A stretch of 37,536 nucleotides of DNA from Candidatus Puniceispirillum sp. Its GTDB lineage: Bacteria > Pseudomonadota > Alphaproteobacteria > Puniceispirillales > Puniceispirillaceae. Location: assembly GCA_028383305.1 (NCBI GenBank), contig JAOEVD010000022.1, positions 1 to 37,536 of the forward strand. The letters are read 5' to 3'. The stretch's first letter is position 1. Each line of letters starts with the position of its first letter. Made by a program: the position numbers and the translations under genes. Below, piece after piece: positions 1 to 24,701 of this stretch. The notes under the pieces were generated by a model. It was not told the DNA's origin. It was given only the letters and a program-made list of their open reading frames with translations, and ran no database searches.

Positions 1-441
1 CTGTACTGATTTAACGATGTTGTGATAGCCGGTGCAGCGACAGATATTTCCCTCCAATCCTTCGCGGATCTCACGCTCGGACAGGTTTTGGTTTTTTGCC
101 ACAAGTTCAATCGCGCTCATCACCATCCCTGGCGTGCAAAATCCGCATTGCAGACCATGATTTTCATGAAACGCTTGCTGCATTGGGTGCAACTCGTCTT
201 CATTGGCGATACCCTCGATTGTCGTGACATCCGCACCATCAAGCTGAGCTGCCAAAATGCTGCACGACTTGATGGACTCACCATTCACATGGACAATACA
301 GGCTCCGCATTGGCTGGTATCGCACCCAACATGTGTTCCGGTCAGCCCCAGCGTCTCGCGCAAAAATGAAACCAGCAAGGTATTGGCTGGAACATCATGG
401 CTCACACCCGTCCCATTTACCTTCATTACTAAAGTTGGCAT
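1..441 (-). CDS. Molybdenum hydroxylase small subunit, 2Fe-2S (CoxS/XDH family), 3' end cut by window
   Basis: This open frame runs from an ATG at 441 to the window edge (147 codons, no stop yet). Family members are about 155-165 residues, so only the extreme C-terminus is missing. It carries both 2Fe-2S signatures. The N-terminal plant-ferredoxin cluster has Cys40, Cys45, Cys48 and Cys60, and the helical-domain cluster has Cys99, Cys102, Cys134 and Cys136 (CGFCTPG and CRCTGY). The subunit passes electrons from the Mo cofactor in the large subunit to a FAD subunit. A GGAAGGAAA Shine-Dalgarno sequence precedes the ATG. No FAD (CoxM-like) subunit is in the window, so it may lie further left. 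Two candidate large-subunit partners lie at 11311-13620 and 13881-16283. The family call is secure; the substrate is unknown. Confidence 0.93.
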
Positions 442-500
442 ATAAGTTTCCTTCCAATTAACTGTCAAATTTTTACACTGTAACTCTATCTCTAACGCGT

Positions 501-1073
501 CTAAGAAACGCCGCTACCAGTCCAGCGCTTTACTGCTGGCAAATGGATATCGAGAAGATCAAGCGCACGACCAACCGTTTGGTCAATGATATCATCCAAT
601 GTTTTTGGCCGTGTATAGAACCCTGGAACTGGTGGCATAACAATGGCTCCAGCCTGGGTCGCCTGATCCATCAACTTGATATGACCCGCATGAAATGGGG
701 TTTCACGAAGCATCAAAACCACGCGGCGCCGTTCTTTTAAACAAACATCAGCAGCGCGGGCGGTCAATTCCTCGTTAAAACAATTGGCAATCGCACTTAG
801 AGTTTTGATTGAACAGGGCGCAACCAGCATACCATTGGTTTGAAACGAGCCAGATGAGATTGCTGCACCAATATCTTTGTGGTTATAAAGTTGATCGGCG
901 AGCAGCTTGATTTGATCCGGCGTATAATCAACTTCGGCAAGAGCTGTGCGGTAGGCAGATGGGGTAATGATGGCATGCGATTCAACATCATCAATTTGTC
1001 GCAATAGCTCAAGTGCACGGATGCCGTAGATCACCCCTGATGCACCAGTTATTGCTATAATTACACGTCGCAT
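501..1073 (-). CDS. ubiX: UbiX-family flavin prenyltransferase
   Basis: The 190-residue protein matches the usual UbiX length. It opens with the nucleotide-binding stretch [11 protein letters not shown] (residues 7-17) and has the late RETPFH and [11 protein letters not shown] segments that bind FMN and dimethylallyl phosphate in this family. UbiX prenylates reduced FMN to make prenyl-FMN, the cofactor of UbiD decarboxylases. A UbiD-family enzyme lies in the same cluster at 7761-9401 on the other strand, so this copy probably serves that enzyme rather than ubiquinone synthesis. GAGGG lies 6-7 bases before the ATG. The gene is 59 bp downstream of the small-subunit gene's start and co-directional with the genes to its right. 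Confidence 0.93.
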
Positions 1074-1194
1074 TCATTTCCCTCTCATCATATTGGGTCA
1101 CTCTATCTTGAGGCGATTTGTCGCCGCTTCAACGCTTCGGCCACAACCGCACTTTGAAAATTCTGAGTCGGCCCCAAAGCCTTTTTAGCCAGTT

Positions 1195-1641
1195 TTATTC
1201 TTTATCAATCATAATTTTCTCAAAATTATTAAAAAACGCTTTTGATAGTTTTTTTGCAGTGCTTTCAATCAATCGCGCACCCAATTGGGCAATTTTTCCT
1301 CCGGTTTCAGCCGTTGCGCTATATCGTAGCAGGGTCTCATTACCCTGATCCACCAGTTCAACATTAGCCCCGCCTTTAGCAAAGCCAGCAAGCCCACCTT
1401 CACCGGCACCAGAAAGCGTTAAATGATGTGGTGCGCGGGAAACATCCAAGCTCACAGTGCCAGAAAATTTAGCCTTGACTGGACCAATTTTCAAAACAAC
1501 CTTTGCGGCAAAATCAGTGTCACTAGTCTTTTCCAGCTCTTCACAACCTGGAATGCAGCGCTTCAAAACCTCTGGATCAATTAGACTGACAAAGACAGTG
1601 TCAAGCTGACCCGATATGACAATTTCTTCGGCTAAATTCAT
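1195..1641 (-). CDS. CoxG-like SRPBCC-domain protein (CO dehydrogenase subunit G family)
   Basis: A 148-residue protein consisting of one CoxG-type SRPBCC domain. Recognisable features are the opening IVISGQLDTVFVSLIDPEVL, the CIPGCEEL segment near residue 30, a central KIGPVKAKFSGTV strand and a C-terminal amphipathic helix. CoxG in CO-oxidising bacteria helps anchor the Mo enzyme at the membrane. Stand-alone homologues often accompany form II and xanthine-dehydrogenase-like hydroxylases of unknown substrate. This version lacks the long hydrophobic C-terminal anchor of classical CoxG. GAGG lies 8-9 bases before the ATG. The start and family are well supported; the exact role is inferred from the neighbouring Mo-hydroxylase subunits. 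Confidence 0.88.
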   Translation of the reverse strand: MNLAEEIVISGQLDTVFVSLIDPEVLKRCIPGCEELEKTSDTDFAAKVVLKIGPVKAKFSGTVSLDVSRAPHHLTLSGAGEGGLAGFAKGGANVELVDQGNETLLRYSATAETGGKIAQLGARLIESTAKKLSKAFFNNFEKIMIDKE

Positions 1642-1728
1642 AGTTATTCCTCAGATGCATAGCTGGTCTTTGAATGTAATTTTACATTTGGTTATTAATT
1701 GCGGGCTGCAAAAAACAAATTTGGACGG

Positions 1729-2559
1729 TTAGACAATATCCATTGATGCCAAAATCCGCGCAATCACATCTGGAACCTCAAGTGGGGTAAAATGGCGCGC
1801 CTGTGGAATCACCGTCAAATTTGAGCTGGGGATCACTCCATGCATTTTTTCAGCCATTACTATTGGTGTGGCATAGTCTTCCTCGCCAACAATAATTTCG
1901 CACGGAACCGTTATATTGCTGAGGGTGTCGCTTTGATTGCAACGACCCAGCATTCTGCAAGTTTCAAGATAAGCAGCAGGATCATTCGCCACAAAGACTT
2001 TGATCGCTTGTTCGACAACAACGTCGTTTTTGGCGCAAAAATCTTCTGAAAACCAACGCGTTTTTTGAAAGCCAGTCATGCTAGCCATGCCACCGGTGAC
2101 AGCTTTTTGGCCGCGTTCTTCCCAATCAGCGATCGCGGTGTCACCATACCAGGCGGTTGTATCAATCAGCGCGAGACCAACAGTACTTTCCGGGTAAAGC
2201 GCAGCAAAGGTCAGTGCGACACAACCACCCATCGACGCCCCACCGACAATAGCCGCATCCCAGTCAGCATGATCAAGAACAGCGGCAAGGTCACTGGCAA
2301 ATAGCTCAACACTGTAGGGGCCTTCGGGCTTTTCTGATGCTCCATGTCCGCGGCAATCGATAGCAAGTATATCAAAGTCAGCCCCAAGCTCGATTGCAGT
2401 GGCCTCCCAAAACTCGGCAACCATGGCAAGCGAGTGGACAAGTACCAGTTTCTTGGTAGGCGTTTTTTTGTTCTCAGAGCTACCTGACCAAATCACATAG
2501 CGAATTTTGGTGCTATCGTTTGCTATGGCAATATATTCGGTTTTCATTATGCTATTCAT
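1729..2559 (-). CDS. Alpha/beta hydrolase (enol-lactonase / C-C hydrolase-like)
   Basis: A 276-residue alpha/beta-hydrolase fold protein. The nucleophile elbow GGASMGG places Ser109, and Asp228 (GEEDYATP) and His256 (QARHFTPLE) complete a catalytic triad. The upstream HSLA (residues 42-45) is at the oxyanion-hole position and DCRGHGASE is the usual strand-4 motif. Such enzymes in aromatic-catabolism clusters hydrolyse enol-lactones or ring-cleavage products. The ATG overlaps the stop of the upstream thiamine-diphosphate gene by four bases (ATGA), so the two are translationally coupled and probably act in consecutive steps. A second in-frame ATG four codons on is an alternative start. The substrate cannot be read from the sequence. 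Confidence 0.9.
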   Translation of the reverse strand: MNSIMKTEYIAIANDSTKIRYVIWSGSSENKKTPTKKLVLVHSLAMVAEFWEATAIELGADFDILAIDCRGHGASEKPEGPYSVELFASDLAAVLDHADWDAAIVGGASMGGCVALTFAALYPESTVGLALIDTTAWYGDTAIADWEERGQKAVTGGMASMTGFQKTRWFSEDFCAKNDVVVEQAIKVFVANDPAAYLETCRMLGRCNQSDTLSNITVPCEIIVGEEDYATPIVMAEKMHGVIPSSNLTVIPQARHFTPLEVPDVIARILASMDIV

Positions 2560-4319
2560 GATAGTTCCACCATTGCGTCGCCGACATATTCTTGGCGAAC
2601 TCTAACGTCAAGGACAACCGTTGCCCCATTTTCAACGCGTTCAAGGCTATGCATTAACGCTGATTGAAGATCTGCTAAATCAACAATTGGGTCGGGCGCT
2701 TCTAGACCCATACCGCGTGCCAGGCCGGCAAGATCTGGCTCAGGCCCCTGAATTCTCTGACCAATTGACGCGCTTTCTTCAGCCCGGCCGCGATGTCGCG
2801 CAATCTTAATCTGGTGATCTTCATCATTGTAATAAGAATGGTTATTTGCGATCAAGAACAGGATTGGCAGCTTTAGGGTAGCTGCATTCCAGATTGCTGT
2901 TAATCCCATTGTAAAGTCACCATCACCAAGTATTGCCACGGCGCGGCGTTTTGAGCCTATTTCTCGAAGACCAAGCGCTGCCCCGACAGCAATTGACGTT
3001 CCGGCACCAAGGCCTCCGCCACCGGTGTGGCCCAAGAAGCCAAGTGGATGAGTTATTTCATTTGCATTAAGTGGCCAGCCAAGTGGCCGGCCGGTGATGC
3101 AAATCTCTCGATCTTTAGTAGCGTGAAAAAACGCCAACGCCAGGTTCATCAGACCAATTTCACCTTTGCCTTCAAGCTTTGGTAAATCCCAACCTTGCAT
3201 AGGCATTGCAGGCACGGGTTTTTCAAGACCATCAAGCAGCGCAGCGACTGTAGTGCTCGTTACCGTTGGTATTGACACATCGACAGCTGGCAATCCGCCA
3301 TAATCCATGTTCCACCCACGATGCATGTGAAAATCATTCGATACATTAATCACTGGCGGACGCGCCACGCCTGCGGGAAATGCCAATTTCAATGCATTGC
3401 CACCATCCAACCAATCAAGCATCAGGATCGCATCTGCAGACTGGATTGCCTCAAGTACAGCGCCTTTCAGACGCCACCCTGTCTCGCCGATAAATAATGG
3501 ATGAGTTGTTGGAAATCCGGCTGGTAATTTCATATGTGTCGCCGTGCGGGCATTCAATCGCTCAGCGAGCTTAATCCGGTTATTCCATTCCGCCTCACTG
3601 CGGCCCCCGCGGCCACAGAAAATAAATGGGCTCTTGGCCCTGGAAAGGATCCCTAGCGCCTTTGAAAGTGCAGCTTTGGGTGGTTCTGCATTGTCCGGAG
3701 TTGGGAAATGCGAGATATCATCAAATGTTGGCCTAACGTCGATTTCCTGTTCTTGAATAGACACGTCAAGATTTACATAGACGGGCCCTGACGGCGCTGT
3801 ATTCGTCAGTATTACACCTCGGCGAATAGACTCGACCGCAGCCACTGGAGATGCGGGCTGATCGTCCCATTTGGTAAAGCCCCGTACCATGCTACCTTGA
3901 TCAATAGTTGTGTGGATCCATTCAATCCATGGTCTACGTTTTGCAGCATCCAGCGGTCCCGTCGCGCCCAGAATGAGCATCGGCACCCGGTCACACCATG
4001 CATTGAACACTCCCATCGACGCATGCATCAAGCCAACATTGGAATGAACGGCTACTGCCAGAGCCTTGTCAGTGATCTTCGCATAGCCTTGAGCAATACC
4101 AACGGCATGTTCTTCATGCATACAGGTTATAATCTCAGGCGTTTGGTTACCAAGATGATTTACCAAGCTATCATGCAACCCACGATAGCTTGCTCCGGGG
4201 TTAAGGCAAATATAGGGAAAACGCTGCTCACGCAGTGCCTCGGCAATCAGGTCACTCCCGTAGAGTTGGTGATCTGGCAGGTTTGAGCTTGCCGCTGGAT
4301 TTTTCATTTCATCTCGCAT
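2556..4319 (-). CDS. Thiamine-diphosphate-dependent enzyme (acetolactate synthase / benzoylformate decarboxylase-like)
   Basis: A 587-residue three-domain ThDP enzyme. The N-terminal PYR domain carries the cofactor-activating Glu69 in the MHEEHAVGIAQGYA segment. The middle domain has the usual sugar-isomerase-like half-site (PFIFCGRGG). The C-terminal PP domain has the ThDP/Mg motif GDGDFTMG followed about 26 residues later by the Asn pair of ANNHSYYN. The family includes acetolactate synthase and decarboxylases of 2-oxo acids such as benzoylformate, oxalyl-CoA or phosphonopyruvate; I cannot pick one. The gene ends in a 4-bp overlap with the hydrolase gene and starts 22 bp after the TctA-TctB gene. 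It therefore sits within one transcription unit with uptake and hydrolysis functions, which argues for catabolism rather than branched-chain amino-acid synthesis. Confidence 0.9.
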   Translation of the reverse strand: MRDEMKNPAASSNLPDHQLYGSDLIAEALREQRFPYICLNPGASYRGLHDSLVNHLGNQTPEIITCMHEEHAVGIAQGYAKITDKALAVAVHSNVGLMHASMGVFNAWCDRVPMLILGATGPLDAAKRRPWIEWIHTTIDQGSMVRGFTKWDDQPASPVAAVESIRRGVILTNTAPSGPVYVNLDVSIQEQEIDVRPTFDDISHFPTPDNAEPPKAALSKALGILSRAKSPFIFCGRGGRSEAEWNNRIKLAERLNARTATHMKLPAGFPTTHPLFIGETGWRLKGAVLEAIQSADAILMLDWLDGGNALKLAFPAGVARPPVINVSNDFHMHRGWNMDYGGLPAVDVSIPTVTSTTVAALLDGLEKPVPAMPMQGWDLPKLEGKGEIGLMNLALAFFHATKDREICITGRPLGWPLNANEITHPLGFLGHTGGGGLGAGTSIAVGAALGLREIGSKRRAVAILGDGDFTMGLTAIWNAATLKLPILFLIANNHSYYNDEDHQIKIARHRGRAEESASIGQRIQGPEPDLAGLARGMGLEAPDPIVDLADLQSALMHSLERVENGATVVLDVRVRQEYVGDAMVELS

Positions 4320-4341
4320 CGCGTGGGAGGTTCCTAAACTT

Positions 4342-6360
4342 TTAGATCAAGCGTCCACTAAGCCGACGTAGCTCGAGAAATGAGTCGCCAAGCATCGATT
4401 GTGGCCATGGAACATGTAAAAGCTCGTGAAACAGGAACCAAACACCTCCCAAAAACGGAAGTAGAATCGCGACTGCCGTCAGTAGTTTCGTTTTACCCTC
4501 GATAATCATATAGAGAAAAATAAACAGTCCAATGGCTGGTAACATGCCGATTAACTTTACCCCAATTACCAGGGCAATTAGCCAGGCCACTTGAAGCGAT
4601 ACGGCGCGCATTGGTTCACTGGCTTCGGTGTTAAGTTTTGGGATTTTGCCAATGTAACTGAATACAGCAAAGCCCAAGGCAGTAACCAGCCCAGCGACGG
4701 CAATTGCTTGAGGAAGCATGCGTGCGGGGCCTTGCCAGCTTGACGAGGATACGAACACATAAATCATAAGAGCAACAACACCCGCCCAAAACAAAATGTC
4801 GGCCAGCATCTCGCCGCGTGTTGCATGGCCAGTTCTGACATGCTTTTGAGCATTACCATTTTTAGTATTGGAGAAATCCACGGCTTTCCAGTTAGGAAGA
4901 AACCGAACCACAAGTGGCCGTGCCAGCAGGAAGGAAATGAGGAGAAGCGTTATCAGTGGCAGTGGCATCAACATCCACTCGTAGCTATAACGAAGCTGCG
5001 AGATAAAGAGATAGTTTTCAACCAAACCGCCAAGGACAAAGGCAAGAATAAGCGGTGGCCGTGGCCAGTTCAACCGTTTCATACCCCATCCAAGAATACC
5101 AAAGGATAAAAGCACAATAAGGTCAGCGTAATCCTTTGCACCCTGATAGGCGCCGATGATCATTATACCGAAGACCAAAGGAACAAGTAGTCCTGAGCGC
5201 ACTGTCGCCAACTTGGCAAAATGCCCGGCCATAGCAAAGCAAAGCCCGGCACCTAGGATATTGGCAATCGCCACAGTCCATATCAGAGTAAAGGTCACAT
5301 CAAGTTGATCCCCCAGCATTTTTGGCCCAGGCGCAATGCCATGAATAAGAAATGCTCCAAGAAGAATAGCCATAGAGGCAGAGCCGGGTACACCAAAAGC
5401 GAGGGTTGGAACCAGAGCACCGCCTTCCTTGGCATTATTTGCGCTTTCCGATGCAATAACACCGCGCACATCGCCCTTGCCAAAACTGTCCCGGGCGCCT
5501 GGCAGCACACGCGCGGCGTAGCCATAGGAAATCCAGTCAATCACATTAGCTCCCAAACCTGGTATTGCTCCTAAGAGGGTTCCAATGCTGGAGCAGCGTA
5601 TCACAAGCCACCAATTGTCAGCAACGTCACGCAATCCTTTGAGTTGATCCCAAGGCGACATCTTTTCTGACTTGCGGGAGATACTGCGCTTTGATGCGCC
5701 CAGATCAATCATTTCAGGTACGGCGAAAAGGCCAAGCGCCACCGGAACAAGGCTGAGTCCGTCCCAAAGGTAGAAATTATCAAAAGTCCAACGCATTTCA
5801 CCAGTTTGAGGCTCGTCTCCAATGGTTGCAAAAAGCAATCCAAGGCAGGCGGCTATAAGACCTTTGAATAAGGCGCGGTGGCTAAGTGAAACTACCAAGG
5901 TTAACCCAAGCAAACAGATTGCTAAAAGTTCGGGTGTGCCGACGGCCATTATGAAAGGCCGTATAACGGGGATCGAAATTGCCAAAATAAATGCGCCAAA
6001 AAGACCACCACAAACCGATGCGGTAAAGGCGGCGCCGTAAGCACGGCCTGCCTCGCCCTTTTTTGCCATCGGGTAGCCATCCAGAACAGTTGCCGCCGAA
6101 CCTGTTGTGCCCGGTACACCAAACATTACAGCTGGTATTGTGTCAGAGGTTGTGGTGACTGCCTGAACCCCAACAAGGAATGCTAGCGCCGTATAGGGGT
6201 CCATGGCAAAAGTGAATGGCAACAGGAGCGCCAGCCCAACTAGCCCACCAATTCCGGGAATGACACCAATTATCAACCCTAGAACCGTTCCCAATCCCAC
6301 AAACATAAGACGTTCAGGGTCTGAAATAATCGAAAGTGCTGAGATAGCTGCCTCAAGCAT
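4342..6360 (-). CDS. Tripartite tricarboxylate transporter, fused TctA-TctB membrane protein
   Basis: A 672-residue polytopic membrane protein. Residues 1 to about 500 form the large TctA subunit, with its glycine/proline-rich signatures VIPGIGG, FGVPGTTGS, AIPGLGAN and FGVPGSAS. From about residue 516, after a hydrophilic linker, a second block with about four membrane segments resembles the small TctB subunit. TctA is normally about 500 residues and TctB about 150, so length and topology both fit a fusion. The system imports carboxylates using the proton or sodium gradient and the TctC binding protein. The matching tctC gene starts divergently at 6599. The gene is the first of the leftward unit ThDP enzyme, hydrolase, CoxG, UbiX and small subunit. 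Confidence 0.92.
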   Translation of the reverse strand: MLEAAISALSIISDPERLMFVGLGTVLGLIIGVIPGIGGLVGLALLLPFTFAMDPYTALAFLVGVQAVTTTSDTIPAVMFGVPGTTGSAATVLDGYPMAKKGEAGRAYGAAFTASVCGGLFGAFILAISIPVIRPFIMAVGTPELLAICLLGLTLVVSLSHRALFKGLIAACLGLLFATIGDEPQTGEMRWTFDNFYLWDGLSLVPVALGLFAVPEMIDLGASKRSISRKSEKMSPWDQLKGLRDVADNWWLVIRCSSIGTLLGAIPGLGANVIDWISYGYAARVLPGARDSFGKGDVRGVIASESANNAKEGGALVPTLAFGVPGSASMAILLGAFLIHGIAPGPKMLGDQLDVTFTLIWTVAIANILGAGLCFAMAGHFAKLATVRSGLLVPLVFGIMIIGAYQGAKDYADLIVLLSFGILGWGMKRLNWPRPPLILAFVLGGLVENYLFISQLRYSYEWMLMPLPLITLLLISFLLARPLVVRFLPNWKAVDFSNTKNGNAQKHVRTGHATRGEMLADILFWAGVVALMIYVFVSSSSWQGPARMLPQAIAVAGLVTALGFAVFSYIGKIPKLNTEASEPMRAVSLQVAWLIALVIGVKLIGMLPAIGLFIFLYMIIEGKTKLLTAVAILLPFLGGVWFLFHELLHVPWPQSMLGDSFLELRRLSGRLI

Positions 6361-6439
6361 GTAAAAGCTCCAATATTTTCGCTAGTTGATTTTTTTTTGT
6401 AATGACTCTCGTTAAGCGGCAAAAAAACACAATAGAAAA

Positions 6440-6454
6440 TATTGTATGACAATA
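6440..6454. promoter_or_regulatory. Palindromic operator candidate in the tctAB/tctC divergent promoter region
   Basis: TATTGTATGACAATA is a perfect inverted repeat with 6-bp arms and a 3-bp spacer. Its size and form resemble operators of GntR/FadR-type regulators, one of which is encoded at 10590-11300. A 12-of-13 match to its reverse strand lies in the other divergent promoter region at 13700-13712. Binding is an inference. Confidence 0.55.
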
Positions 6455-6464
6455 ATACCTTTTA

Positions 6465-6494
6465 TTTACAATCCATTTTTTTATCTGCTAAGAT
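6465..6494 (+). promoter_or_regulatory. Candidate sigma-70 promoter of tctC
   Basis: TTTACA (6465-6470) and TAAGAT (6489-6494) are separated by 18 bp and lie about 105 bp before the tctC start. The palindrome at 6440-6454 lies just upstream, so a regulator bound there could act on both divergent units. This was read by eye, without start-site data. Confidence 0.4.
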
Positions 6495-6598: not shown

Positions 6599-7654
6599 GT
6601 GAAGTTTATAAAAAAAATTCGTACCATTGTTACTGCAAGTGCTGTGATAGCAACAGCAACTATGGCGTCTCATGGCGTTTATGCAAAATCGTTAGAGGAT
6701 GTCTATAAGGGTAAAACCATCACTATCATGCTGGGGCACCCTCCAGGCGGCTCTTATGACCTGTACTCCCAACTTGCAGCAGAGTTTATTGGAAAACATA
6801 TCCCGGGTAATCCAGATATTATTGTCCAGCACAGACCAGGCGGTGGTGGTCGTAAAGGCGCATCATTCTTTATCAACAAGACAGAGCCTGATGGGCTAAC
6901 GCTCGGTGTTTTCCCTGATAGCCTCGGTTTGATTCAGTTTTTGAGGCCAAAAGCAGCAAAATGGGATGCCAAGAAATTTCGCTATGTTGGTCGTTTTTCA
7001 ACTGCCAATGTTGGTTTTGCCGTCCGTACAGATAAAGCCACAACTGCTGAAGCAATGCGTGGCCAAGAGCTAGTTGTCGCTTGCACAAGTAAGAGCGCAC
7101 GTGCAGCCCAGCAAGCGTCAGCTTTGAAAAATCTAGCCGGGTTCAACTTTAAACTTGTTTGTGGCTATAAAGGCTCTCAAGCAACAGTTATGGCATCGCT
7201 TCGTGGGGAAGCTGATTTGTACTCACAGAATTATGCATCTTTCGTATCTGACCCGGCAGACCTTGGTGAAGGTGCAATGAAGATTCTTATTCAAACCGGC
7301 TTGGAGCGCGATGCTGGCATGCCAGACGTTCCACTGATGCAAGAATTAACCGATGACCCAAAGGGTAAGGCTATCTTGAGATTCCTGGGTTCTACAGCAC
7401 CGATTGGCCGGTCAATGATGATCCATCCAGATACACCTGAATTTATTGTCAAAGGCATGCGTACCGCTTTCCAAAAAATGCTCAAAGATGAGGCTTTTCT
7501 TAACGAAGCAAAAAAGCGGAGCGCCATCATTACCCCAGGAACAGGAGAGGAGCTTGAGGCAATTATGAAAGAACAAATGAGCGCCAGCAATGATTTCATT
7601 GCGGATGTGCGCGCTGCGGTTGATGCTTCCGATGCCGGTTCTGTAAAGAAATAA
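6599..7654 (+). CDS. TctC/Bug-family periplasmic substrate-binding protein
   Basis: A 351-residue extracytoplasmic binding protein. Residues 1 to about 29 form a Sec signal peptide: basic KFIKKIR, a hydrophobic core and a likely cleavage after VYA. The mature part has the family features KTITIMLGHPPGGSYDLYS, IVQHRPGGGGRKG and a two-lobe periplasmic-binding fold. It would present a carboxylate to the TctA-TctB protein encoded divergently at 4342-6360. The start is a GTG with a strong GGGAGGAAC Shine-Dalgarno sequence at 6588-6596. Bug proteins bind very varied ligands (citrate, aromatic acids, amino acids), so the ligand is open. A hairpin follows the stop codon. Confidence 0.93.
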   Translation: MKFIKKIRTIVTASAVIATATMASHGVYAKSLEDVYKGKTITIMLGHPPGGSYDLYSQLAAEFIGKHIPGNPDIIVQHRPGGGGRKGASFFINKTEPDGLTLGVFPDSLGLIQFLRPKAAKWDAKKFRYVGRFSTANVGFAVRTDKATTAEAMRGQELVVACTSKSARAAQQASALKNLAGFNFKLVCGYKGSQATVMASLRGEADLYSQNYASFVSDPADLGEGAMKILIQTGLERDAGMPDVPLMQELTDDPKGKAILRFLGSTAPIGRSMMIHPDTPEFIVKGMRTAFQKMLKDEAFLNEAKKRSAIITPGTGEELEAIMKEQMSASNDFIADVRAAVDASDAGSVKK

Positions 7655-7661
7655 TAATCGG

Positions 7662-10495: not shown

Positions 10496-10589
10496 AGAGG
10501 TACTGTTAAAGTGAGAGTGGAAAAGCCAGACATTTATTGGAGTGCTTGGTTTTTACTTTATAACTGGTTAAGTTGAGGGTGGGTCGAAT

Positions 10590-11300: not shown

Positions 11301-11310
11301 ATATTTTGCT

Positions 11311-13620
11311 TTAGGGGCTCTGTAGATTTTTAACTTGCAAGGCCCTCCATACGGCCTGTGACGTCGCCGGCATATTAACCGGGTCAGCACCAACACTGGT
11401 CAGCGCATCGCAAACAGCGTTCATCACTGCGGCTAGTGCTCCCACTGTTCCAGCCTCGCCCGCGCCTTTGGCGCCAAGTGGGTTGCTGTTTGTTGGGACT
11501 GGCTGGCTAATCACTTCCACCGCTGGAAGTTCAGTCGCTCGCGGCATGGCGTAATCCATAAAGCTTGCTGAAACAAGTTGTCCATTGGTGGAGTCATAAA
11601 CCACTTGTTCCATGAGCGCCTGACCTAGCCCTTGGGCAACGCCACCAGTAATTTGTCCTTTCAATAATTTTGGGTTAATCACAGTACCAACATCATCAAC
11701 TACTAAATATGAAATGACGTCAACACTACCTGTAGTTGGGTCAATTTCTACCTCGCAAATATGACAGCCATTTGGAAAGGTTGCATTGTCAGCGCTACCA
11801 TCAAATTCAGCGCAAATGGGCACAGCGCTCTGGCGGATAAGATCAATAAAGCTGATTGAAAGATTGCTCTTTTGAACTCGGTAGTAACCACCCTCAAAAG
11901 AAATCTCATCAATGGTGCTTTCCAATACCTGTGCCGCTGGTTCCTGCATAGTTTTTATCAGGATCTCAGCACATTTAACAATTGACGTTCCGGCCGCAGC
12001 AACGGTTCTAGAGCCAAAAGTGCCCGTACCATTGGGGGCCTCTCGAGTGTCTCCTGCGATCAGTGAAACAGCGGTGGGATCAACGCCAAGCTTGGAAGAT
12101 AGAATTTGCGCAAAGACGGTGGCATGGCCTTGCCCAGAGTCTGATGACCCACTCACCAATACAACGCTGCCGTCGGGCGACACGGTCACACGGGCAAATT
12201 CAGAATGTGGTTTTCGTTCCGGCCCACCAGCAATTTCAATCGGGCTAGCAATGCCAAATCCGCGTATTCTGCCACGCAATTTACTAGCCATTCGGCGGTC
12301 ATAAAATCCAGCCCAGTTGGCTGCAATCAAGGCAGTGTCAAGAAGACCTGGAAAATCCCCACCGTCATAGGTGAAAACAAGCCCCGTTTTAAACGGCATC
12401 TGTTCTGGGCGAATCATATTCCGGCGACGCAATTCGACTTTGTCAAAGCCCAGTTTTTCAGCAGCAATATCGATCATTCGTTCGATGATATACGTTGCCT
12501 CTGGGCGCCCGGCGCCTCGATATGGTGATACGTTTTGCGTGTTACTAAACACGCCTTCAACTAGTACATGGCTGGCTGGAACATCATAAACGCCGGTTAT
12601 GCCGCCAATATTGCTGACCACGGGATGAATGGTCGATGGTCCAATATGGGCGCCAAGATTTGCCGTAATCTTGACATCAAGGCTGAGAAACTTCCCACTT
12701 TCATCAAGCCCAAGCGCAACATCCGCTATTTGCTCACGCGCATGGGTATCGCTAAGAAACGACTCCAACCGCGATGCCCGCCAACACACTGAAATACCGT
12801 AATGCTCCGCCGCCCATAGGCCAACCGCATATTCAGGGAAAGCTGTGTTTTTCATCCCGAAAGAGCCGCCACAATCTTGGGCAATAATTTCGATAGCATC
12901 AGGCTCTATCCCCAATGCTGTGGCAAGATCAGGGCGGATACGATTTGGCGTTTGGGTGCCAACCTCTAGCCGATATTTACCTGATGCACTATTAAAGCTT
13001 GCACGGATCGCCCGTGGTTCCAATGCGGCAGCAGTCACCCGAGAAATAGTTAATTGATGTTTGACAACATACGCTGCTTTTCCATTTTCTTGCTGGACTT
13101 TTTTAGCATCACCTTTTTCAAAATGAAAGCACCGGTTATCTGGATAAATATCCCAGACACATTCCGCACCATCAGAAAGGGCATTTGCAATATCGATCAC
13201 GGACGAACTCGTCTCAAAGAGAATATCAACGGCCTCAAGCGCCAACTCTGCGCTGGCTTTATCTTTAGCGATAATGCCTAAAACCGGTTCCCCACAATAT
13301 CGAACGTAACCATCTGCCAAGGGGGTGAAGGGTGGAATCCTCATTGCCCCATTATCAGGGCCGGGAAACTGTGCGCGAGGTTTGAAACTGCCAGCTTTGT
13401 TGGCGTACATTTCGTCCCAGCCAAAAATGGCTATTACACCCTTGATAGCTTTGGCCCGATCAAGATCTACTTTAACAATCCGGGCGGCAGCGTGGGGTGA
13501 TCGAACAAACATCAAGGTTGCGTCATCAGATTGCTTGATGTCATCCGTATATTGACCCTGGCCTCTTAAAAAACGGTCATCCTCAAATCTAAGCTGGGAT
13601 CGGCCAATTTTTGTCATCAC
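11311..13620 (-). CDS. Molybdenum hydroxylase large subunit, xanthine dehydrogenase/CoxL family (copy 1)
   Basis: A 769-residue molybdopterin-binding subunit of usual length. It begins with IGRSQLRFEDDRFLRGQGQYTDDI, has the GGSFGMK loop at residues 251-257, and ends with the KGAGEAGT segment containing the conserved catalytic Glu. The active-site loop reads PYRGAGR at residues 366-372. Genuine form I CO dehydrogenases have AYXCSFR there and form II enzymes have AYRGAGR, so this is a form II-like hydroxylase acting on an unknown aldehyde or heterocycle. GTG 13620 is immediately followed by ATG 13617, and either may be the start. It probably pairs with the 2Fe-2S subunit at 1-441. Its promoter region is shared with the second large subunit. 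Confidence 0.93.
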   Translation of the reverse strand: MMTKIGRSQLRFEDDRFLRGQGQYTDDIKQSDDATLMFVRSPHAAARIVKVDLDRAKAIKGVIAIFGWDEMYANKAGSFKPRAQFPGPDNGAMRIPPFTPLADGYVRYCGEPVLGIIAKDKASAELALEAVDILFETSSSVIDIANALSDGAECVWDIYPDNRCFHFEKGDAKKVQQENGKAAYVVKHQLTISRVTAAALEPRAIRASFNSASGKYRLEVGTQTPNRIRPDLATALGIEPDAIEIIAQDCGGSFGMKNTAFPEYAVGLWAAEHYGISVCWRASRLESFLSDTHAREQIADVALGLDESGKFLSLDVKITANLGAHIGPSTIHPVVSNIGGITGVYDVPASHVLVEGVFSNTQNVSPYRGAGRPEATYIIERMIDIAAEKLGFDKVELRRRNMIRPEQMPFKTGLVFTYDGGDFPGLLDTALIAANWAGFYDRRMASKLRGRIRGFGIASPIEIAGGPERKPHSEFARVTVSPDGSVVLVSGSSDSGQGHATVFAQILSSKLGVDPTAVSLIAGDTREAPNGTGTFGSRTVAAAGTSIVKCAEILIKTMQEPAAQVLESTIDEISFEGGYYRVQKSNLSISFIDLIRQSAVPICAEFDGSADNATFPNGCHICEVEIDPTTGSVDVISYLVVDDVGTVINPKLLKGQITGGVAQGLGQALMEQVVYDSTNGQLVSASFMDYAMPRATELPAVEVISQPVPTNSNPLGAKGAGEAGTVGALAAVMNAVCDALTSVGADPVNMPATSQAVWRALQVKNLQSP

Positions 13621-13699
13621 ATAATCTCTTGAAAACTGTTTACAAAACGTTTTGCTAATTCCTTTGATTTTGACTTCTCAGTATAGACAAAACAAAAGC

Positions 13700-13712
13700 A
13701 TTGTCATACATT
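13700..13712. promoter_or_regulatory. Second copy of the candidate GntR operator, between the two large-subunit genes
   Basis: ATTGTCATACATT matches the reverse strand of 6441-6453 at 12 of 13 positions. It lies 80 bp upstream of the leftward large-subunit gene and 168 bp upstream of the rightward one. Placement in both divergent promoter regions of the cluster suggests a common regulator. The inverted-repeat symmetry is imperfect at this copy. Confidence 0.5.
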
Positions 13713-13880
13713 AATACAATAAATATCTTAACGCTTAATTTTGTACCGTTCGCAAAAATCATAGGCGCAAAAGGTGACGCCTAAACACATACAAATTTCG
13801 CCTGATTAAGTGGTGCAAGACCAAAACGTAGTTTGAACAGGCTAAAGTATGAAAAACAAGTTAGGGAAAGATGGCTTTGC

Positions 13881-16283
13881 ATGAGTGAATTTGTTTTTCC
13901 ACCGCCAGAACAGACTGCCGTCGTGAAAAGTTTTGGCGAGACTATTATTAAAAACATCGGTCAACCCATCAGGCGAAAGGAGGATAAACGGCTTCTAACT
14001 GGTGTGGGACAATTCACCGATGATTTCACCTTACCCAATCAAGGCTTTGCCGCGATGGCTCGCTCGCCCTATCCGCACGCTTTGATAAACGGCATTGACA
14101 GCGCAAAAGCACTCGCAATGCCAGGAGTATTAGCGGTAATAACAGGTGCGGATATCCAAAAAGCTGGCCTTGGGCCAATACCGCATAACCCTATTCCTAG
14201 TACAAAATACGATCTAAAACTGCGCGCCCCGGACGGCACGCATGCGACTATTGACGCGCATTATCTTTTGCCGGAAGACCGTGTCCGCTATGTTGGCGAG
14301 GCGGTTGCGATGGTTGTTGCTGATAGTTTGCAGCAAGCGCTTGACGCGGTTGAAGAAATTTTTATTGATTATTCTGTTTTGCCACACATTAGCGAGTCAA
14401 AAGATGCCATCTTGCCAGGTGCGCCTCAATTATATGAGCATATCGAAAATAATGTTCTGATTGATACGAAGTTTGGCGATCAGGCTTTAACAGATCAGGC
14501 TTTTGCAAAAGCATCACATGTTGTCGAGCATGAGTTTCATATTCAGCGGGTAACTGGCGTAACCATGGAGCCCCGTAGCGCGCTTGGCAGTTATGATGCT
14601 GATGCCGGTAAATTTACGTTGATTGCGGGAAGCGGTGGTGCGGTGCGGCAACAAAGTGAAATTGCAGCTGTACTTGGCATTGACACGTCTGAAATTCGTG
14701 TAATCTCGCCCGATGTGGGTGGAAATTTTGGCACACGGAACCGTGTTTATATTGAATTTGGCCTAGTGCTGTTTGCGGCGAAGAAAATTAACCGGCCAGT
14801 TAAATTTACAGCGACACGTAGTGAGTCATTTCTTACAGACTATCAAGGGAGAGATTTGGTCACAAATATAGCTTTAGCGCTAGATGAAAACGGCAAATTC
14901 CTGGGTTTAAAATGTGATAATATTTCAAATGTTGGAGCGCATTGTGTATCATTATCACCGCTCGGCAAAGGGTCTGGGCTTATCACCGGCTCCTATCACA
15001 TTCCAGCCGCTGTATTGCGAGCACGCGCCGTCTTTACCAACACCATGTCAACTCAGGCATATCGTAGCTCTGGCCGACCTGAAGTCACCTATGCCATTGA
15101 ACGTGTTATTGAAATTGCGGCACGACGGCTTGGCGTTGACGCGCTAGAATTACGACGCAAAAACCTGATTCCACCGTCAGCAATGCCATATGTTAACGCG
15201 GTTGGTTCACGCTATGACAGTGGTGAATATGAGATCAATATGGATCGGGCTTTAAGACTTGCCGATTGGAATGGATTTGATCTGCGCAAAAAAGTAGCAG
15301 CCAAAAACGGCCTACTGCTAGGCCGGGGGTTGGCCAATTATGTGGAATCCTCAATTGGATCTCCAGGTGAACAGGCTGAGATCACTGTGAAAACGGATGG
15401 ATTTGTTGATCTAGTAATTGGCACGCAACCAAGTGGTCAGGGCCATGAGACAAGCTTTGCTCAGGTCACTGCTGATCTCACCGGACTTCCAGTGGAAAAT
15501 ATTAACATCATTCTAGGTGACACTAAAATTGTCACTGTTGGTGGCGGCACACATTCTGGGCGGTCAATGCGCCATGCTGCAACGGTCATAGGGCTTGCTT
15601 GTGACGATTTAATTGCTGAATGCCAGGGACGGCTTGTCGAAATACTTGATTGTGCAGGTGATGAGATTGAGTTCTTGGATGGTGTGTTCGTAGTGCGCGC
15701 AACCAATCATCAATTCACATTTAATGATATTGCGATCCAAACCATTGATAGTCACGGCGTCCTTAAAATTGTCCGCAAGAACGAGATGCACACGCCAGTA
15801 TATCCAAATGGGACGGCGATTTGTGAAATCGAAATAGACCCTCAATCAGGGTCCAGCACGGTGACAAGGTACAGCACGATTGATGATGTTGGGCGTTGTA
15901 TCAACCCGCTAATTGTGCATGGCCAAACGCATGGCGGTATTGTGCAGGGCGCAGGGCAAGCATTGTTTGAACATTGCTTTGTTGATCATAAGTCTGGCCA
16001 GCCACTGGCAGGTTCATTGATGGATTATGGGATTTCACGAGCCGCTGATTTTCCTAGCTTTAAGACTGAAATTGCCGAAGTGTTATCGCCAACAAACCCT
16101 CTTGGGATCAAGGCCGGGGGAGAAGGCGGAACAACACCGGCGTTGGCTGCCATTGTGAATGCTGTGGTCGATGCATTAGCTGATTTCGGAGTTGAGGATA
16201 TCGCCATGCCAGTATCGCCGCAACGCATCTGGACAACACTAAAAGCTGCAAGTTTGCCGTCTAATCAAAAGCCTCAGGTATAA
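13881..16283 (+). CDS. Molybdenum hydroxylase large subunit, xanthine dehydrogenase/CoxL family (copy 2)
   Basis: About 800 residues from the ATG at 13881. The frame stays open back to a TTG at 13833, but those 16 residues are not family-like and have no ribosome site. The N-terminus IGQPIRRKEDKRLLTGVGQFTDDF, the GGNFGTRN loop and the C-terminal AGGEGGTTPAL with its conserved Glu are typical. The active-site loop reads AYRSSGR (near residue 391), differing from both AYXCSFR (form I CODH) and AYRGAGR (form II). It is clearly diverged from copy 1 across its length, so this is not a recent duplication. The two may have different substrates while sharing small subunits. It is followed co-directionally by a binding-fold protein and a GMC oxidoreductase. 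Confidence 0.93.
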   Translation: MSEFVFPPPEQTAVVKSFGETIIKNIGQPIRRKEDKRLLTGVGQFTDDFTLPNQGFAAMARSPYPHALINGIDSAKALAMPGVLAVITGADIQKAGLGPIPHNPIPSTKYDLKLRAPDGTHATIDAHYLLPEDRVRYVGEAVAMVVADSLQQALDAVEEIFIDYSVLPHISESKDAILPGAPQLYEHIENNVLIDTKFGDQALTDQAFAKASHVVEHEFHIQRVTGVTMEPRSALGSYDADAGKFTLIAGSGGAVRQQSEIAAVLGIDTSEIRVISPDVGGNFGTRNRVYIEFGLVLFAAKKINRPVKFTATRSESFLTDYQGRDLVTNIALALDENGKFLGLKCDNISNVGAHCVSLSPLGKGSGLITGSYHIPAAVLRARAVFTNTMSTQAYRSSGRPEVTYAIERVIEIAARRLGVDALELRRKNLIPPSAMPYVNAVGSRYDSGEYEINMDRALRLADWNGFDLRKKVAAKNGLLLGRGLANYVESSIGSPGEQAEITVKTDGFVDLVIGTQPSGQGHETSFAQVTADLTGLPVENINIILGDTKIVTVGGGTHSGRSMRHAATVIGLACDDLIAECQGRLVEILDCAGDEIEFLDGVFVVRATNHQFTFNDIAIQTIDSHGVLKIVRKNEMHTPVYPNGTAICEIEIDPQSGSSTVTRYSTIDDVGRCINPLIVHGQTHGGIVQGAGQALFEHCFVDHKSGQPLAGSLMDYGISRAADFPSFKTEIAEVLSPTNPLGIKAGGEGGTTPALAAIVNAVVDALADFGVEDIAMPVSPQRIWTTLKAASLPSNQKPQV

Positions 16284-16350
16284 CCCAAAAACCGAACAAA
16301 ACTGCCAATTCATCAAATTTCACGAACGCTTTAAGAAGAGTAATCAACCC

Positions 16351-17280
16351 ATGTCAAACAGCCCACTCCGAGTTATTGCCTTTCCCGGCGCGCCAAACCT
16401 ACCAACATTTGCTGCGATTGAACATGGACGGTTTCAAGCACGCGGTTTTGATGTTGAGCTTGAGTTAACGCCGAGCTCAATATATCAGGCGGAAAAAACT
16501 GCAGCTGGTGAGTTTGATATTATTTGCACCGCGTTTGATAATGTCGCTGCTTATGGTTCTGGCCAGGGCGCTACTAAGGCGGGCATCAACCCTGATTATG
16601 TTGTCATAATGGGAGCAACCCAGCTTGAGCTTAGTTTGGTGACCCTACCCTCTATCAAAACGCTTGCCGATCTGGCAGGAAAAACCATTGCACTTGACGC
16701 CCTTACTACCGGCTTCGCATTCGTGCTCTTTGATATGCTGGAAAAAGCTGGTGTTTCTCGAAGTGACGTGGAGTTTGTTGCTGTTGGCGCAACGCCCCAG
16801 CGCTGGCAATCGGTAAAAGACGGAACCCACGCGGGCACATTAACAATTGAACCTTTTACCAGCCTTGCCCAATTCGATGGATTTAATGTCATTGCAAAAT
16901 CAACCGATCTTTACTCTGAATATCAGGGCGGCGTTATTGCAACAACGCGATCAACGCTGGCCAGCCAACCGGAAAAAATATACGCTTTTGTAAAATCCTA
17001 TCTTGACGGGCTCGCATGGGTTCTTGACCCCATGAATGAAGCAGAGGCAAAGACGATCCTTGGGTCGCGTATGCCACAAGTCAAACCAAAGGCAATGACA
17101 GCAGTAATGAACAGTCTTACCTCGCCTGCATCGGGCCTTACCCCAGCGGCTGCACTGCTTGACGCAGGCATGGATCAGGTCATCGCATTACGATCAAAGT
17201 ATGGTAATGGCACAGCGCCAATTAGCTCAGCCGAACATTTCGTTGATTTGGGTATTTACCAGAAGGCCTTGCAAGCCTGA
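16351..17280 (+). CDS. NMT1/THI5-like periplasmic-binding-fold protein without signal peptide
   Basis: The 309-residue protein resembles SsuA/TauA/NMT1-like type 2 binding proteins: LRVIAFPGAPNLPTFAAIEHGRFQARG at the start, a central DLAGKTIALDALTTGFAF and the ATPQRWQSVKDGTHAGTL hinge-side segment. It begins directly with the first strand after MSNSPLR. There is no signal peptide, lipobox or membrane segment, and no ABC permease or ATPase lies beside it. Enzymes with this fold are known, such as yeast Thi5 and 4,5-dihydroxyphthalate decarboxylase, so a cytoplasmic enzymatic role is possible in this catabolic setting. The alternative is an exported protein with a misplaced start, but no suitable upstream sequence exists in the 67-bp gap. 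Confidence 0.8.
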   Translation: MSNSPLRVIAFPGAPNLPTFAAIEHGRFQARGFDVELELTPSSIYQAEKTAAGEFDIICTAFDNVAAYGSGQGATKAGINPDYVVIMGATQLELSLVTLPSIKTLADLAGKTIALDALTTGFAFVLFDMLEKAGVSRSDVEFVAVGATPQRWQSVKDGTHAGTLTIEPFTSLAQFDGFNVIAKSTDLYSEYQGGVIATTRSTLASQPEKIYAFVKSYLDGLAWVLDPMNEAEAKTILGSRMPQVKPKAMTAVMNSLTSPASGLTPAAALLDAGMDQVIALRSKYGNGTAPISSAEHFVDLGIYQKALQA

Positions 17281-17304
17281 CCCTGGGAATGAAAGCAAAG
17301 TTTT

Positions 17305-18951
17305 ATGCCAATTGTTGCTGACATTGACGATCTATCAATGCTTGAATTTGATTTTGTCGTTATTGGCGGCGGATCCGCTGGTTGCGTGCTTGCCTCCCGT
17401 CTTTCAGAAGACAGTACTTGCTCAGTTCTGCTGATCGAAGCTGGCCAACTTATCCGGCATCCGTTAATTCGAGTGCCAATCGGTGTCGGCAAAATATGGA
17501 GCCGCCGACTTTTTGATTGGCACTTAAACAGCAGCAAAACCCCTAGCCTTCGTAATCGCAAAATTGAACTTATGCGCGGAAAGCTTCTCGGCGGTTCATC
17601 ATCAATCAATGCGATGTCTTATGTGCGAGGTGCGCCAGCTGATTATGATGGCTGGCGGGATGCTGGCTGTGACGGGTGGTCTTTTGACGAGGTGGAGCCA
17701 TTCTTTCGAAAGGTTGAAAACTGGACAGGGCCGCGGACCAGCCGCCGTGGCATCGACGGGCCGGTAACAGTTTCGCCGGCGAAATCCACAGACATTTTAT
17801 ATGATGCTTGGTTCAAAGCGGCCACGTCATGCGGTTATGAGGTCATTGACGATTATAATGCTTTACCAGATTGGGCACCGCTTGAGGGATTTGCGCGCAG
17901 TCAGCAGACCATAGGCAACGGCTATCGGGTTACCGCATGGAGCGCTTACCTTGCCAATCATCTGAAGCGCTCCAACCTTCATATTCTGACTGACACCCAT
18001 GTAGCGCGGATAAAATTAAAGAACAATCAGGCCGACCAGCTTGATCTGGTGACAGGGCGCAACCAGCATCGATCAATCGAACTTGGTGGTACGCTGATTC
18101 TTTCCGCGGGAGCGTTTCATACGCCGCATATCCTGATGCAATCAGGTATAGGCCCTGAGGCAGTGTTAAAACGAGCTAATATTCCGATGTTGATCAAATC
18201 CGAAGACGTAGGGCGTCATTATCGCGATCACATGGCGGTGCAAATTAACTTTCGCCGCAAGGACAAGGGTGAGTTTCACCATAATATGCGGCTTGACCGC
18301 ATCAGTTTTAATTTTCCTAGGGCAGCACTTTTTGGCAAGGGGCCGGCAACGGAATTACCCGGCGCCATGCATGGGTTCGCACGGCTTAGCCCCAAAGCGT
18401 TAGTTCCCGACATCCAATTCCTATTCCGCGGCGCACCAAAGCATGCTGCCCCTTGGTGGCCGCTGATTTCTTCTGGCTATGAAGACGGCTTTGGTATTCG
18501 GCCGGTCTTGCTGCACCCTACCAGTCATGGAACTGTTGAAGCACTTAGTGATGATCCATTAAAGCCCCCAAAAATTGATGGCCGCTATCTTAATGAGCCG
18601 GAAGATGTTGAGCGGATGCTGGAAGGTGTTGAAATCGCAATGACCCTAGCGAATGATCCAGCGATGCAAGAATTCATAGCCGACAAGCAAAGCCCCATAC
18701 CCTCTGATCGTAAAAGCCGAATTGAGTGGGTACGACAAACAGCAATCACCGCCCATCATCCTTGTGGAACTTGCCGGATGGGACCCGAAAACAGCGCGCC
18801 TCTCGACATTGATTTAAGGTTTCGCGGTGTTGACAACATGCTGGTTGTCGACGCATCCGTATTTCCAAAGACAATCTCCGGCAACATCAATGCTTGTGTC
18901 TACATGCTGGCCGAAAAAACCGCAGCGATGCTGACATCGCCTGCGAGGTAA
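17305..18951 (+). CDS. GMC-family FAD oxidoreductase (choline/alcohol dehydrogenase-like)
   Basis: A 548-residue flavoprotein. The N-terminal FAD dinucleotide fold has GGGSAG at residues 21-26. The second GMC signature follows as LLGGSSSINAMSYVRG. The C-terminal catalytic region holds HHPCGTCRMG (His485 as the likely proton acceptor) and SGNINACVYMLAE, the position of the second conserved His/Asn. GMC enzymes oxidise primary alcohols or aldehydes, including choline, aryl alcohols and 5-hydroxymethylfurfural. It lies 24 bp after the binding-fold gene and closes the catabolic cluster. Mobile-element sequence begins about 100 bp downstream. The substrate is not determinable from sequence. Confidence 0.93.
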   Translation: MPIVADIDDLSMLEFDFVVIGGGSAGCVLASRLSEDSTCSVLLIEAGQLIRHPLIRVPIGVGKIWSRRLFDWHLNSSKTPSLRNRKIELMRGKLLGGSSSINAMSYVRGAPADYDGWRDAGCDGWSFDEVEPFFRKVENWTGPRTSRRGIDGPVTVSPAKSTDILYDAWFKAATSCGYEVIDDYNALPDWAPLEGFARSQQTIGNGYRVTAWSAYLANHLKRSNLHILTDTHVARIKLKNNQADQLDLVTGRNQHRSIELGGTLILSAGAFHTPHILMQSGIGPEAVLKRANIPMLIKSEDVGRHYRDHMAVQINFRRKDKGEFHHNMRLDRISFNFPRAALFGKGPATELPGAMHGFARLSPKALVPDIQFLFRGAPKHAAPWWPLISSGYEDGFGIRPVLLHPTSHGTVEALSDDPLKPPKIDGRYLNEPEDVERMLEGVEIAMTLANDPAMQEFIADKQSPIPSDRKSRIEWVRQTAITAHHPCGTCRMGPENSAPLDIDLRFRGVDNMLVVDASVFPKTISGNINACVYMLAEKTAAMLTSPAR

Positions 18952-24690: not shown

Positions 24691-24701
24691 TTTGGTTCGA
24701 T

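Follow-up and report, generated by a model that had tools for sequence, protein, structure and literature searches.

What compound is handled by the genes that lie at one end of a contig of Candidatus Puniceispirillum sp. (assembly GCA_028383305.1, contig JAOEVD010000022.1) is the question raised by this locus. The stretch analysed, 37,536 nucleotides long and hereafter called the window, comprises bases 1-37536 of contig C15 in a genome of 2.41 Mb, 81 contigs and 84% completeness, and its positions 1 to 18,951 bring together a tripartite tricarboxylate transporter (TctABC), a UbiD-family decarboxylase with its UbiX partner, a thiamine diphosphate (ThDP) enzyme, an alpha/beta hydrolase, two molybdenum (Mo) hydroxylase large subunits (MoA and MoB), a binding-fold protein and a GntR/FCD regulator. 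We give somewhat better than an even chance to the reading that these roughly fifteen genes constitute one regulon through which a small (hetero)aromatic carboxylic acid is imported and degraded by a route that employs neither coenzyme A (CoA) nor a ring-cleaving dioxygenase, and that the GntR/FCD protein controls this regulon by acting at the operator WWTGTATGACARW. The reading is built on the gene set, its conservation, the motif residues of its enzymes, the co-occurrence of the ThDP enzyme with MoA and an operator shared by both halves of the set, and from these observations we infer the reactions, the order of the steps, the pairing of regulator with operator, and the substrate. If true, it would add a logic of ring-acid breakdown that dispenses both with CoA and with O2-dependent ring cleavage.

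Pfam and NCBIfam profile scans of 20 open reading frames (ORFs) of the window recovered, at its coordinates, every gene that an initial annotation of this DNA had named. On the reverse strand, counting from base 1, are encoded a CoxS-like 2Fe-2S subunit of a Mo hydroxylase (1-468; Pfam Fer2_2 and Fer2), the flavin prenyltransferase UbiX (501-1073), whose family is assigned by NCBIfam models above their cut-offs (NF004685, 251 bits against 188; TIGR00421, 233 against 108.9), a PcaD-like alpha/beta hydrolase of the enol-lactonase type (1729-2559), a ThDP enzyme resembling benzoylformate decarboxylase (2556-4319; Pfam TPP N, M and C), which shares four bases (2556-2559) with the hydrolase ORF, and the TctA and TctB membrane subunits fused in one ORF (4342-6360; Pfam TctA 438 bits, TctB 33 bits). 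Forward-strand genes encode the periplasmic binding protein TctC (6599-7654; Pfam TctC), with which the tripartite transporter is complete by Pfam, the UbiD-family decarboxylase of the type that uses prenylated flavin mononucleotide (prenyl-FMN) (7761-9401; Pfam UbiD (Rift), UbiD_N and UbiD_C) and the GntR/FCD regulator (10590-11300; Pfam GntR and FCD). MoA (11311-13620, reverse strand) and MoB (13833-16283, forward strand), both recognized by Pfam and NCBIfam profiles and 37% identical to each other, flank a second divergent promoter region, and MoB, the core large subunit, is adjoined by a cytoplasmic protein of the NMT1/solute-binding-protein fold (16351-17280, forward strand; Pfam NMT1).

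The initial gene list had overlooked a CoxG/SRPBCC gene (1195-1641, reverse strand; Pfam COXG, 108 bits), which in rhizobia is placed between the 2Fe-2S and NMT1-fold genes, a broken gene of an AbrB-family membrane protein (9376-10495, forward strand), and the end of the contig at base 1. The AbrB-family gene, matched by Pfam AbrB on three ORFs (profile positions 1-88, 90-192 and 200-313), is disrupted by a shift of reading frame plus an in-frame stop codon, and decay and assembly error cannot be told apart as the cause. The closest named relatives by UbiD identity are SAR116 cluster bacterium AG-325-I21 (locus L032, 88%) and Candidatus Puniceispirillum sp. AH-135-F23 (L033, 83%); in L033, where the gene order is identical to that of the window throughout, the AbrB-family gene is a single ORF (11616-12719) and a flavin adenine dinucleotide (FAD) subunit (L033:1364-2167) follows the 2Fe-2S gene. 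As the 2Fe-2S ORF of the window is open at base 1, with the same gene order, the FAD subunit of its set was probably lost beyond the contig end.

That these genes form one conserved set and not a chance assembly, as had been proposed, is borne out by their recurrence across families. A pattern-and-tblastn scan of a genome collection described as holding 84,980 species yielded 40 separate loci that encode a relative of UbiD (L032-L071), to which four plasmid loci were added to give 44 (L032-L075); gene presence was taken from tblastn, as longest-frame ORF calling in high-GC loci yields many spurious antisense ORFs. UbiD is flanked by genes of the set in most of the 40 loci (exceptions with little of the set include L065, L067 and L071), and UbiD, UbiX, MoB, the 2Fe-2S and FAD subunits, the cytoplasmic binding-fold protein, the PcaD-like hydrolase and GntR recur jointly in SAR116, Rhodobacteraceae and Rhizobiaceae; these genes are the core wherever the stretch is long enough. 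At 75% coverage in tblastn the NMT1-fold protein was found in 34 of the 44 loci and MoB in 38, where the remote matches of L066, L070 and L075 (27-47%) are counted in. In its public annotation, the plasmid locus of Neorhizobium petrolearium (L072) carries in one stretch genes for the FAD and 2Fe-2S subunits, CoxG, the NMT1-fold binding protein, MoB, UbiD, MoA, GntR, UbiX, TctC, the ThDP enzyme, the tripartite permease and an alpha/beta hydrolase. Almost the same set is found on plasmids of Sinorhizobium meliloti LMB1 and S. fredii NGR234, with no PcaD-like match within the NGR234 stretch examined. Gene content is thus conserved in relatives, and gene order is conserved blockwise and rearranged between families.

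Around this constant core the type of carrier varies among TctABC, ABC, LctP-type and NCS2-type systems, an LctP-type permease preceding the hydrolase gene in L058 (labelled Formivibrio) and L059 (labelled Acidocella). The GMC oxidoreductase (17305-18951, forward strand; Pfam GMC N and C), which had earlier been counted as a member of the set, turned out to be a SAR116 addition outside the core: among the 40 named loci it was seen only in the two SAR116 loci (L032, L033) and weakly, at 43%, in one locus of Rhodobacteraceae (L037). The cluster as a whole is rare, its NMT1-fold marker being present in 3 of 61 genomes of the family to which the window belongs (its own genome counted) and in 2 of 398 genomes of a phylum sample, namely its own genome and one 37% match. 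If the reading holds, a function would be assigned in SAR116, Rhodobacteraceae and rhizobia to genes whose present labels give no more than a family (UbiD family decarboxylase, xanthine dehydrogenase family protein, carbon monoxide dehydrogenase subunit G). Several other genes were noted near the cluster, including modABC molybdate transporter genes a few kb away in N. petrolearium (L072:2772-5393), a DUF2390/TIGR02444 protein that recurs in 12 loci (e.g. L043:13106-13807) and was not seen in the window, and a gene for class II 3-deoxy-D-arabino-heptulosonate 7-phosphate (DAHP) synthase between the hydrolase and XdhC genes in the L069 genome (L125:2587-3954).

The strongest evidence that both halves of the set make up a single regulon, which is likely, is an operator common to them. 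The sequence ATTGTATGACAAT lies at 6441-6453 in the divergent region between TctAB and TctC, and its reverse complement with one change lies at 13700-13712 in the divergent region between MoA and MoB (ATTGTCATACATT; AATGTATGACAAT on the other strand); these two exact matches to WWTGTATGACARW are the total for the assembly of the window. In ten whole genomes WWTGTATGACARW has 23 matches, compared with 2 for a reversed control pattern, and 16 of the 23 are in the cluster, 2 precede an NCS2-type permease gene 11-13 kb away and 5 are elsewhere. The two distant sites belong to the L043 and L069 genomes, in which the permease ORFs (L043:19367-20818; L125:5045-6502 in the L069 genome) have the exact operator 45-55 bases upstream, and the permease is a possible clue to the substrate. 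The five copies outside the cluster were not accepted as further regulon members, three being beside genes without evident link and the other two, one ahead of a second Mo-hydroxylase operon in the L033 genome and one ahead of a DAHP synthase gene in the L047 genome, being left as candidates.

The operator core TGTATGACA occurs 69 times in the window and the 44 loci (899,142 bases) as opposed to 6.9 expected with uniform letters, in counts that are not independent, as many of the loci are close kin, and with a consensus that was fixed after reading loci later counted. Sixty-five of these copies are outside listed ORFs, and most precede TctAB/TctC, MoA/MoB, MoB/UbiD, GntR, TctC or the hydrolase gene. 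With three mismatches allowed the window has 10 operator matches against a chance mean of 14.9, and for the degenerate form at two mismatches it has 5, where chance gives 3.6; because these counts are near or below chance, the case for the operator rests on its exact core and its position. The GntR/FCD protein is presumed, from its position and family, to be the regulator that binds the operator, and the operator provides a handle for testing the regulon in cultured carriers. Operator-like sites were also noted in the L033 genome, where two of them (with 2 and 1 mismatches, L128:6831-6917) precede a second Mo-hydroxylase operon (large subunit 8497-10875), after which come an ORF that resembles an amidohydrolase by eye and has no NCBIfam match, and a ThDP enzyme (L128:7092-14001 in all). 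In the L047 genome a copy precedes a class II DAHP synthase gene (L127:8072-9584).

For the enzymes, motif residues were read, and trees built, from aligned rows filtered by length and identity (UbiD at least 60%; MoA 45% or 48%; ThDP enzyme 45% or 50%; MoB unfiltered in the first tree, and 55% in the motif check and in the approximately unbiased (AU) test), with L033 excluded from both the trees and the motif check of MoB. The window UbiD belongs to its family by Pfam domains above their cut-offs and by Arg177, Glu283 and Glu288, which are invariant in 42/42 rows, are matched in structure 6h6x, and correspond to the Arg/Glu/Glu catalytic residues of UbiD enzymes. Its best solved relative is 6h6x/6h6v (159 bits over 456 residues), which bears a generic name in the structure record and which we take to be HmfF; His 296 of that chain, by its own numbering, is presumably H297 of HmfF, and Arg304 belongs to the substrate pocket. 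In the cluster enzymes the position aligned to His 296 is Ser327 in all 42 rows, and that aligned to Arg304 is Tyr335 in 40 of the 42. According to PMC7976604, H297 is key to the furan-type substrates of HmfF. Because both residues are replaced, the cluster UbiD is not of the HmfF type. A second UbiD gene was observed in the same genome (C11:46124-47104, cut by a contig end), 55% identical to the window UbiD, and the same-genus genome G381 also has a 55% relative.

The invariant motif residues of the Mo, ThDP and hydrolase families are catalytic, and in each case they are retained. The PcaD-like protein is predicted to be a serine hydrolase of the PcaD fold because its triad (Ser109, Asp228, His256) is invariant in 21/21 rows; it falls outside the 3-oxoadipate enol-lactonase PcaD proper (TIGR02427, 175.6 bits against a cut-off of 255.85). 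Similarly, the ThDP enzyme has its Glu69-Glu70 and GDG motifs invariant in 19/19 rows, its best solved relatives are benzoylformate decarboxylases at no more than 93 bits, and the benzoylformate decarboxylase equivalog scores 138.7 bits against 493. MoA retains a PYRGAGR loop and Glu722 of the GE motif in 20/20 rows and MoB an AYRSSGR loop and Glu764 of the GE motif in 35/35, and the nearest solved relatives of both are CoxL-, nicotine- and quinoline-type enzymes alike. The comparison of UbiD and both large subunits with characterized enzymes that the initial annotation had proposed, made here against the PDB and NCBIfam, found all three distant from solved enzymes (best scores 159 bits for UbiD, 393 and 384 for the large subunits) and below every NCBIfam equivalog cut-off listed. 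A total of nine matches to Mo-hydroxylase large subunits, MoA and MoB included, were noted in this 2.4 Mb genome (contigs C23, C3, C29, C15, C78, C28, C1 and C2).

In the proposed core route, MoB with the 2Fe-2S and FAD subunits would hydroxylate the ring of an acid R-COOH with an OH from water, UbiD would remove the carboxyl group using prenyl-FMN from UbiX, and the PcaD-like protein, the proposed ring-opening hydrolase, would open an enol lactone or a ring analogue to an open-chain acid of central metabolism. An optional upper module would precede these steps, in which TctABC may import a 2-oxo acid R-CO-COOH, the ThDP enzyme may turn this acid into R-CHO by decarboxylation, and MoA may oxidize R-CHO to R-COOH with the same electron-transfer subunits as MoB. 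Orthologues of the ThDP enzyme (59-84% identity) and of MoA (51-85%) are found in the identical 17 of 32 genomes, and the remaining 15 have weaker matches only (ThDP at most 50%, MoA at most 42%), the identity thresholds having been placed at a visible gap after seeing the lists; 33 of the 40 named loci had been submitted to this survey, and 32 genomes were searched with L064 left out. On general chemical grounds a five-membered ring would be the most economical fit, because hydroxylation and decarboxylation could give a hydrolysable lactone directly. A furan acid would yield a butenolide and then succinate semialdehyde, near central metabolism. An N-heterocycle is kept equally open, since the HmfF-type His is missing and nitrogen-related genes are found in some rhizobia.

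Several observations weigh against the favoured reading. The cluster enzymes carry Ser in place of the furan-linked His of HmfF, which makes a furan acid of the HmfF kind less likely, and the operator core is absent from 11 of the 44 loci, two of which (L035 and L036) have sites with two mismatches. With kinship counted, the association of the ThDP enzyme with MoA is not significant, because the UbiD tree resolves it into only 3 independent changes (p 0.25 by sign test), and the overlap of the ThDP and hydrolase ORFs would also fit an action of the ThDP enzyme and MoA after ring opening. In addition, a plasmid locus of Phyllobacterium zundukense (L076) has a UbiD match in three pieces, no annotated Mo genes, and an intradiol ring-cleavage dioxygenase annotated about 1 kb away, which counts against a route free of dioxygenases. 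Finally, the isochorismatase-type amidase and NCS2-type permease of some ThDP-less rhizobia point rather to a nitrogen-containing ring. On such a ring of the pyridine, pyrrole, imidazole or pyrimidine type, MoB would hydroxylate beside the nitrogen, UbiD would decarboxylate, and hydrolases (the PcaD-like one and, in some rhizobia, the amidase) would open the ring and release ammonia. The amidase is present in seven ThDP-less loci (L043, L047, L052-L054, L057 and L069), of which L043, L047 and L069 also have an ABC-transporter gene and XdhC; the best solved relatives of the L043 copy are N-carbamoylsarcosine amidohydrolase and isochorismatase-family hydrolases. The exact operator before the permease genes of the L043 and L069 genomes is in line with this, and Mo hydroxylases often act on N-heterocycles. 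However, neither the amidase nor the NCS2 gene was found in the window or in ThDP-type loci by protein clustering, the window scans revealed no ring-cleaving oxygenase for a six-membered ring, and the mixed solved relatives of MoA and MoB do not single out a nitrogen ring, so that we regard this as a real possibility well short of even.

The place of the ThDP enzyme and MoA could also be reversed, with the hydrolase giving a 2-oxo acid that the ThDP enzyme decarboxylates to an aldehyde for oxidation by MoA. The four-base overlap in the window suits this order, yet in the 15 genomes that have the core without close ThDP and MoA orthologues the route would lack its end, and in N. petrolearium the hydrolase gene is several kb from that of the ThDP enzyme; we consider this order rather doubtful. 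It is very unlikely that the set is a variant of the Hmf furan pathway, in which the GMC oxidase would make furan-2,5-dicarboxylate, UbiD would make 2-furoate and MoB would oxidize the latter. Its presumed HmfF relative among solved UbiD structures and the presence of a GMC oxidoreductase, UbiD/UbiX and a Mo enzyme would agree with such a variant, set against which are the replaced His and Arg, the lack of a CoA ligase among the window scans, and a GMC gene seen in 3 of 40 named loci with other enzymes as its best solved relatives. The halves of the set are transcribed apart and are rearranged between families, as would be expected of two unrelated adjacent operons, one for transport, the ThDP enzyme and UbiD and the other for the Mo enzymes and the binding-fold protein; the same operator in both divergent regions, and the persistence of MoB, NMT1-fold and UbiD genes together across families, make this highly improbable. 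An aerobic carbon monoxide (CO) dehydrogenase, which the CoxL and CoxG names of automatic annotation suggest, is scarcely credible: CO dehydrogenase models and CoxL structures do rank high in the match lists, but the NCBIfam models for the large subunit are far under their cut-offs (453-534 against 950 bits; 415-418 against 991), and the loops of MoA and MoB differ from AYXCSFR, the active-site motif of form I CO dehydrogenase.

With regard to known systems, the Hmf furan pathway comprises a lower part, HmfABCDE, and an upper part, HmfF/HmfG with HmfH or PsfGA (gene list after PMC12064950 and general background). The set described here resembles it in having a UbiD-type decarboxylase with UbiX, a three-subunit Mo enzyme, a hydrolase and an alcohol-oxidizing enzyme; it differs in that no furoyl-CoA synthetase was seen in the window, in that its UbiD lacks the His/Arg pair of 6h6x, the presumed HmfF, and in its additional ThDP enzyme, TctABC, cytoplasmic binding-fold protein and second Mo large subunit. 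The absence of an acyl-CoA synthetase, which had been remarked on earlier, holds for the window scans: no AMP-binding family was found in the 20 ORFs, with the sequence beyond base 1 unseen and the rest of the genome not searched, and no CoA ligase or ring-cleaving oxygenase families were found among those ORFs or among 10 scanned neighbour proteins of relatives. Pathways for N-heterocycles such as nicotine, quinoline and nicotinate use Mo hydroxylases, and they share with the present set a three-subunit Mo hydroxylase and, in some of its relatives, an amidase; the window adds UbiD decarboxylation and shows no dioxygenase. The pyrrole-2-carboxylate decarboxylase PA0254/HudA is likewise a prenyl-FMN decarboxylase, and its substrate is a five-membered heteroaromatic acid, whereas the window UbiD scores about 72 bits to the solved members of that branch and no Mo enzyme or lactonase is mentioned beside HudA in the accessible part of PMC7976604. 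No account of this gene set was found in searches of the open-access papers in PMC, which leave out subscription journals. Catabolism of ring acids by UbiD and Mo hydroxylases is known as such, and its combination with a dedicated operator may be new. More tentatively, and with the chances clearly below even, the set would represent a CoA- and dioxygenase-free three-step core route for a five-membered heteroaromatic acid, with an exchangeable ThDP/Mo upper module, a GntR operator of its own and a cytoplasmic binding-fold component whose function would be new, the whole having spread between Alphaproteobacteria of marine and of root-associated habit.

For the binding-fold component, the lack of an export signal that had been noted in the initial annotation was confirmed in the window, where no start codon exists upstream within the open frame and there is no room for such a signal. 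In 24 of 34 homologous loci upstream starts add at most 12 residues, and for the remaining 10 a longer protein could be read, the start codons in locus extraction having been chosen near that of the window. The gene is within 300 bases of MoB and on the same strand in 33/33 loci from which both were extracted. An AlphaFold2 model from 24 aligned homologues (predicted local distance difference test score 93) retrieved in Foldseek periplasmic binding proteins first (CAE31940, and thiamin- and taurine-binding proteins) and also the enzymes Thi5 and DszB, which have the same fold and likewise lack an export signal, at 12-15% identity. FPGAPNLP, TAFDN, D116, R151-W152 and IEPFT are fully invariant in the family, and His160 is nearly so. 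DszB has Cys27 (mutated to C27S in 2de3) as its catalytic residue, whereas no fully invariant Cys or His occurs in the cluster family. Probably this protein either binds one of the compounds of the pathway or converts it, and a binding-protein fold in the cytoplasm beside a Mo hydroxylase would, if true, be a little-known role for this fold.

The UbiD part of the cluster, at least, has likely been transferred horizontally. SAR116 UbiD nests within Rhodobacteraceae in the tree, a Rhodobacteraceae-only clade without SAR116 is rejected (AU test p 0.026), and identity to the UbiD proteins of L034-L038 is 81-83%, compared with 52-57% for DNA polymerase I in four of these genomes. DNA polymerase I replaced Edd as the vertical yardstick; Edd was dropped, as it lies between tRNA-Arg repeats of the window and was not found in the four same-genus genomes searched nor in the L033 genome. 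UbiD and the ThDP enzyme of SAR116 group with Rhodobacteraceae L034-L038 and MoB does not, and for the ThDP enzyme a Rhodobacteraceae-only clade is not rejected (p 0.077). A mixed origin of the cluster halves is not demonstrated, as the AU test does not reject placing MoB in a common clade (p 0.078) and the MoA result also agrees with such a clade.

Beyond the gene set, the 3' end of a tRNA-Arg(CCG) gene with its flank is repeated at 19049-19109, 20317-20365 and 27250-27341 of the window. The repeats surround genes for a tyrosine recombinase (19044-20255), Eda (20672-21304), Edd (21301-23133), a 6-phosphogluconolactonase-family protein (23130-23684) and a D5-type helicase (25587-27203), and the whole is probably an integrative element of the tRNA-Arg gene with Entner-Doudoroff genes as its cargo. 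Inside this putative element, 58 bases are repeated directly at 24634-24691 and 25065-25122, the two copies being 95% identical.

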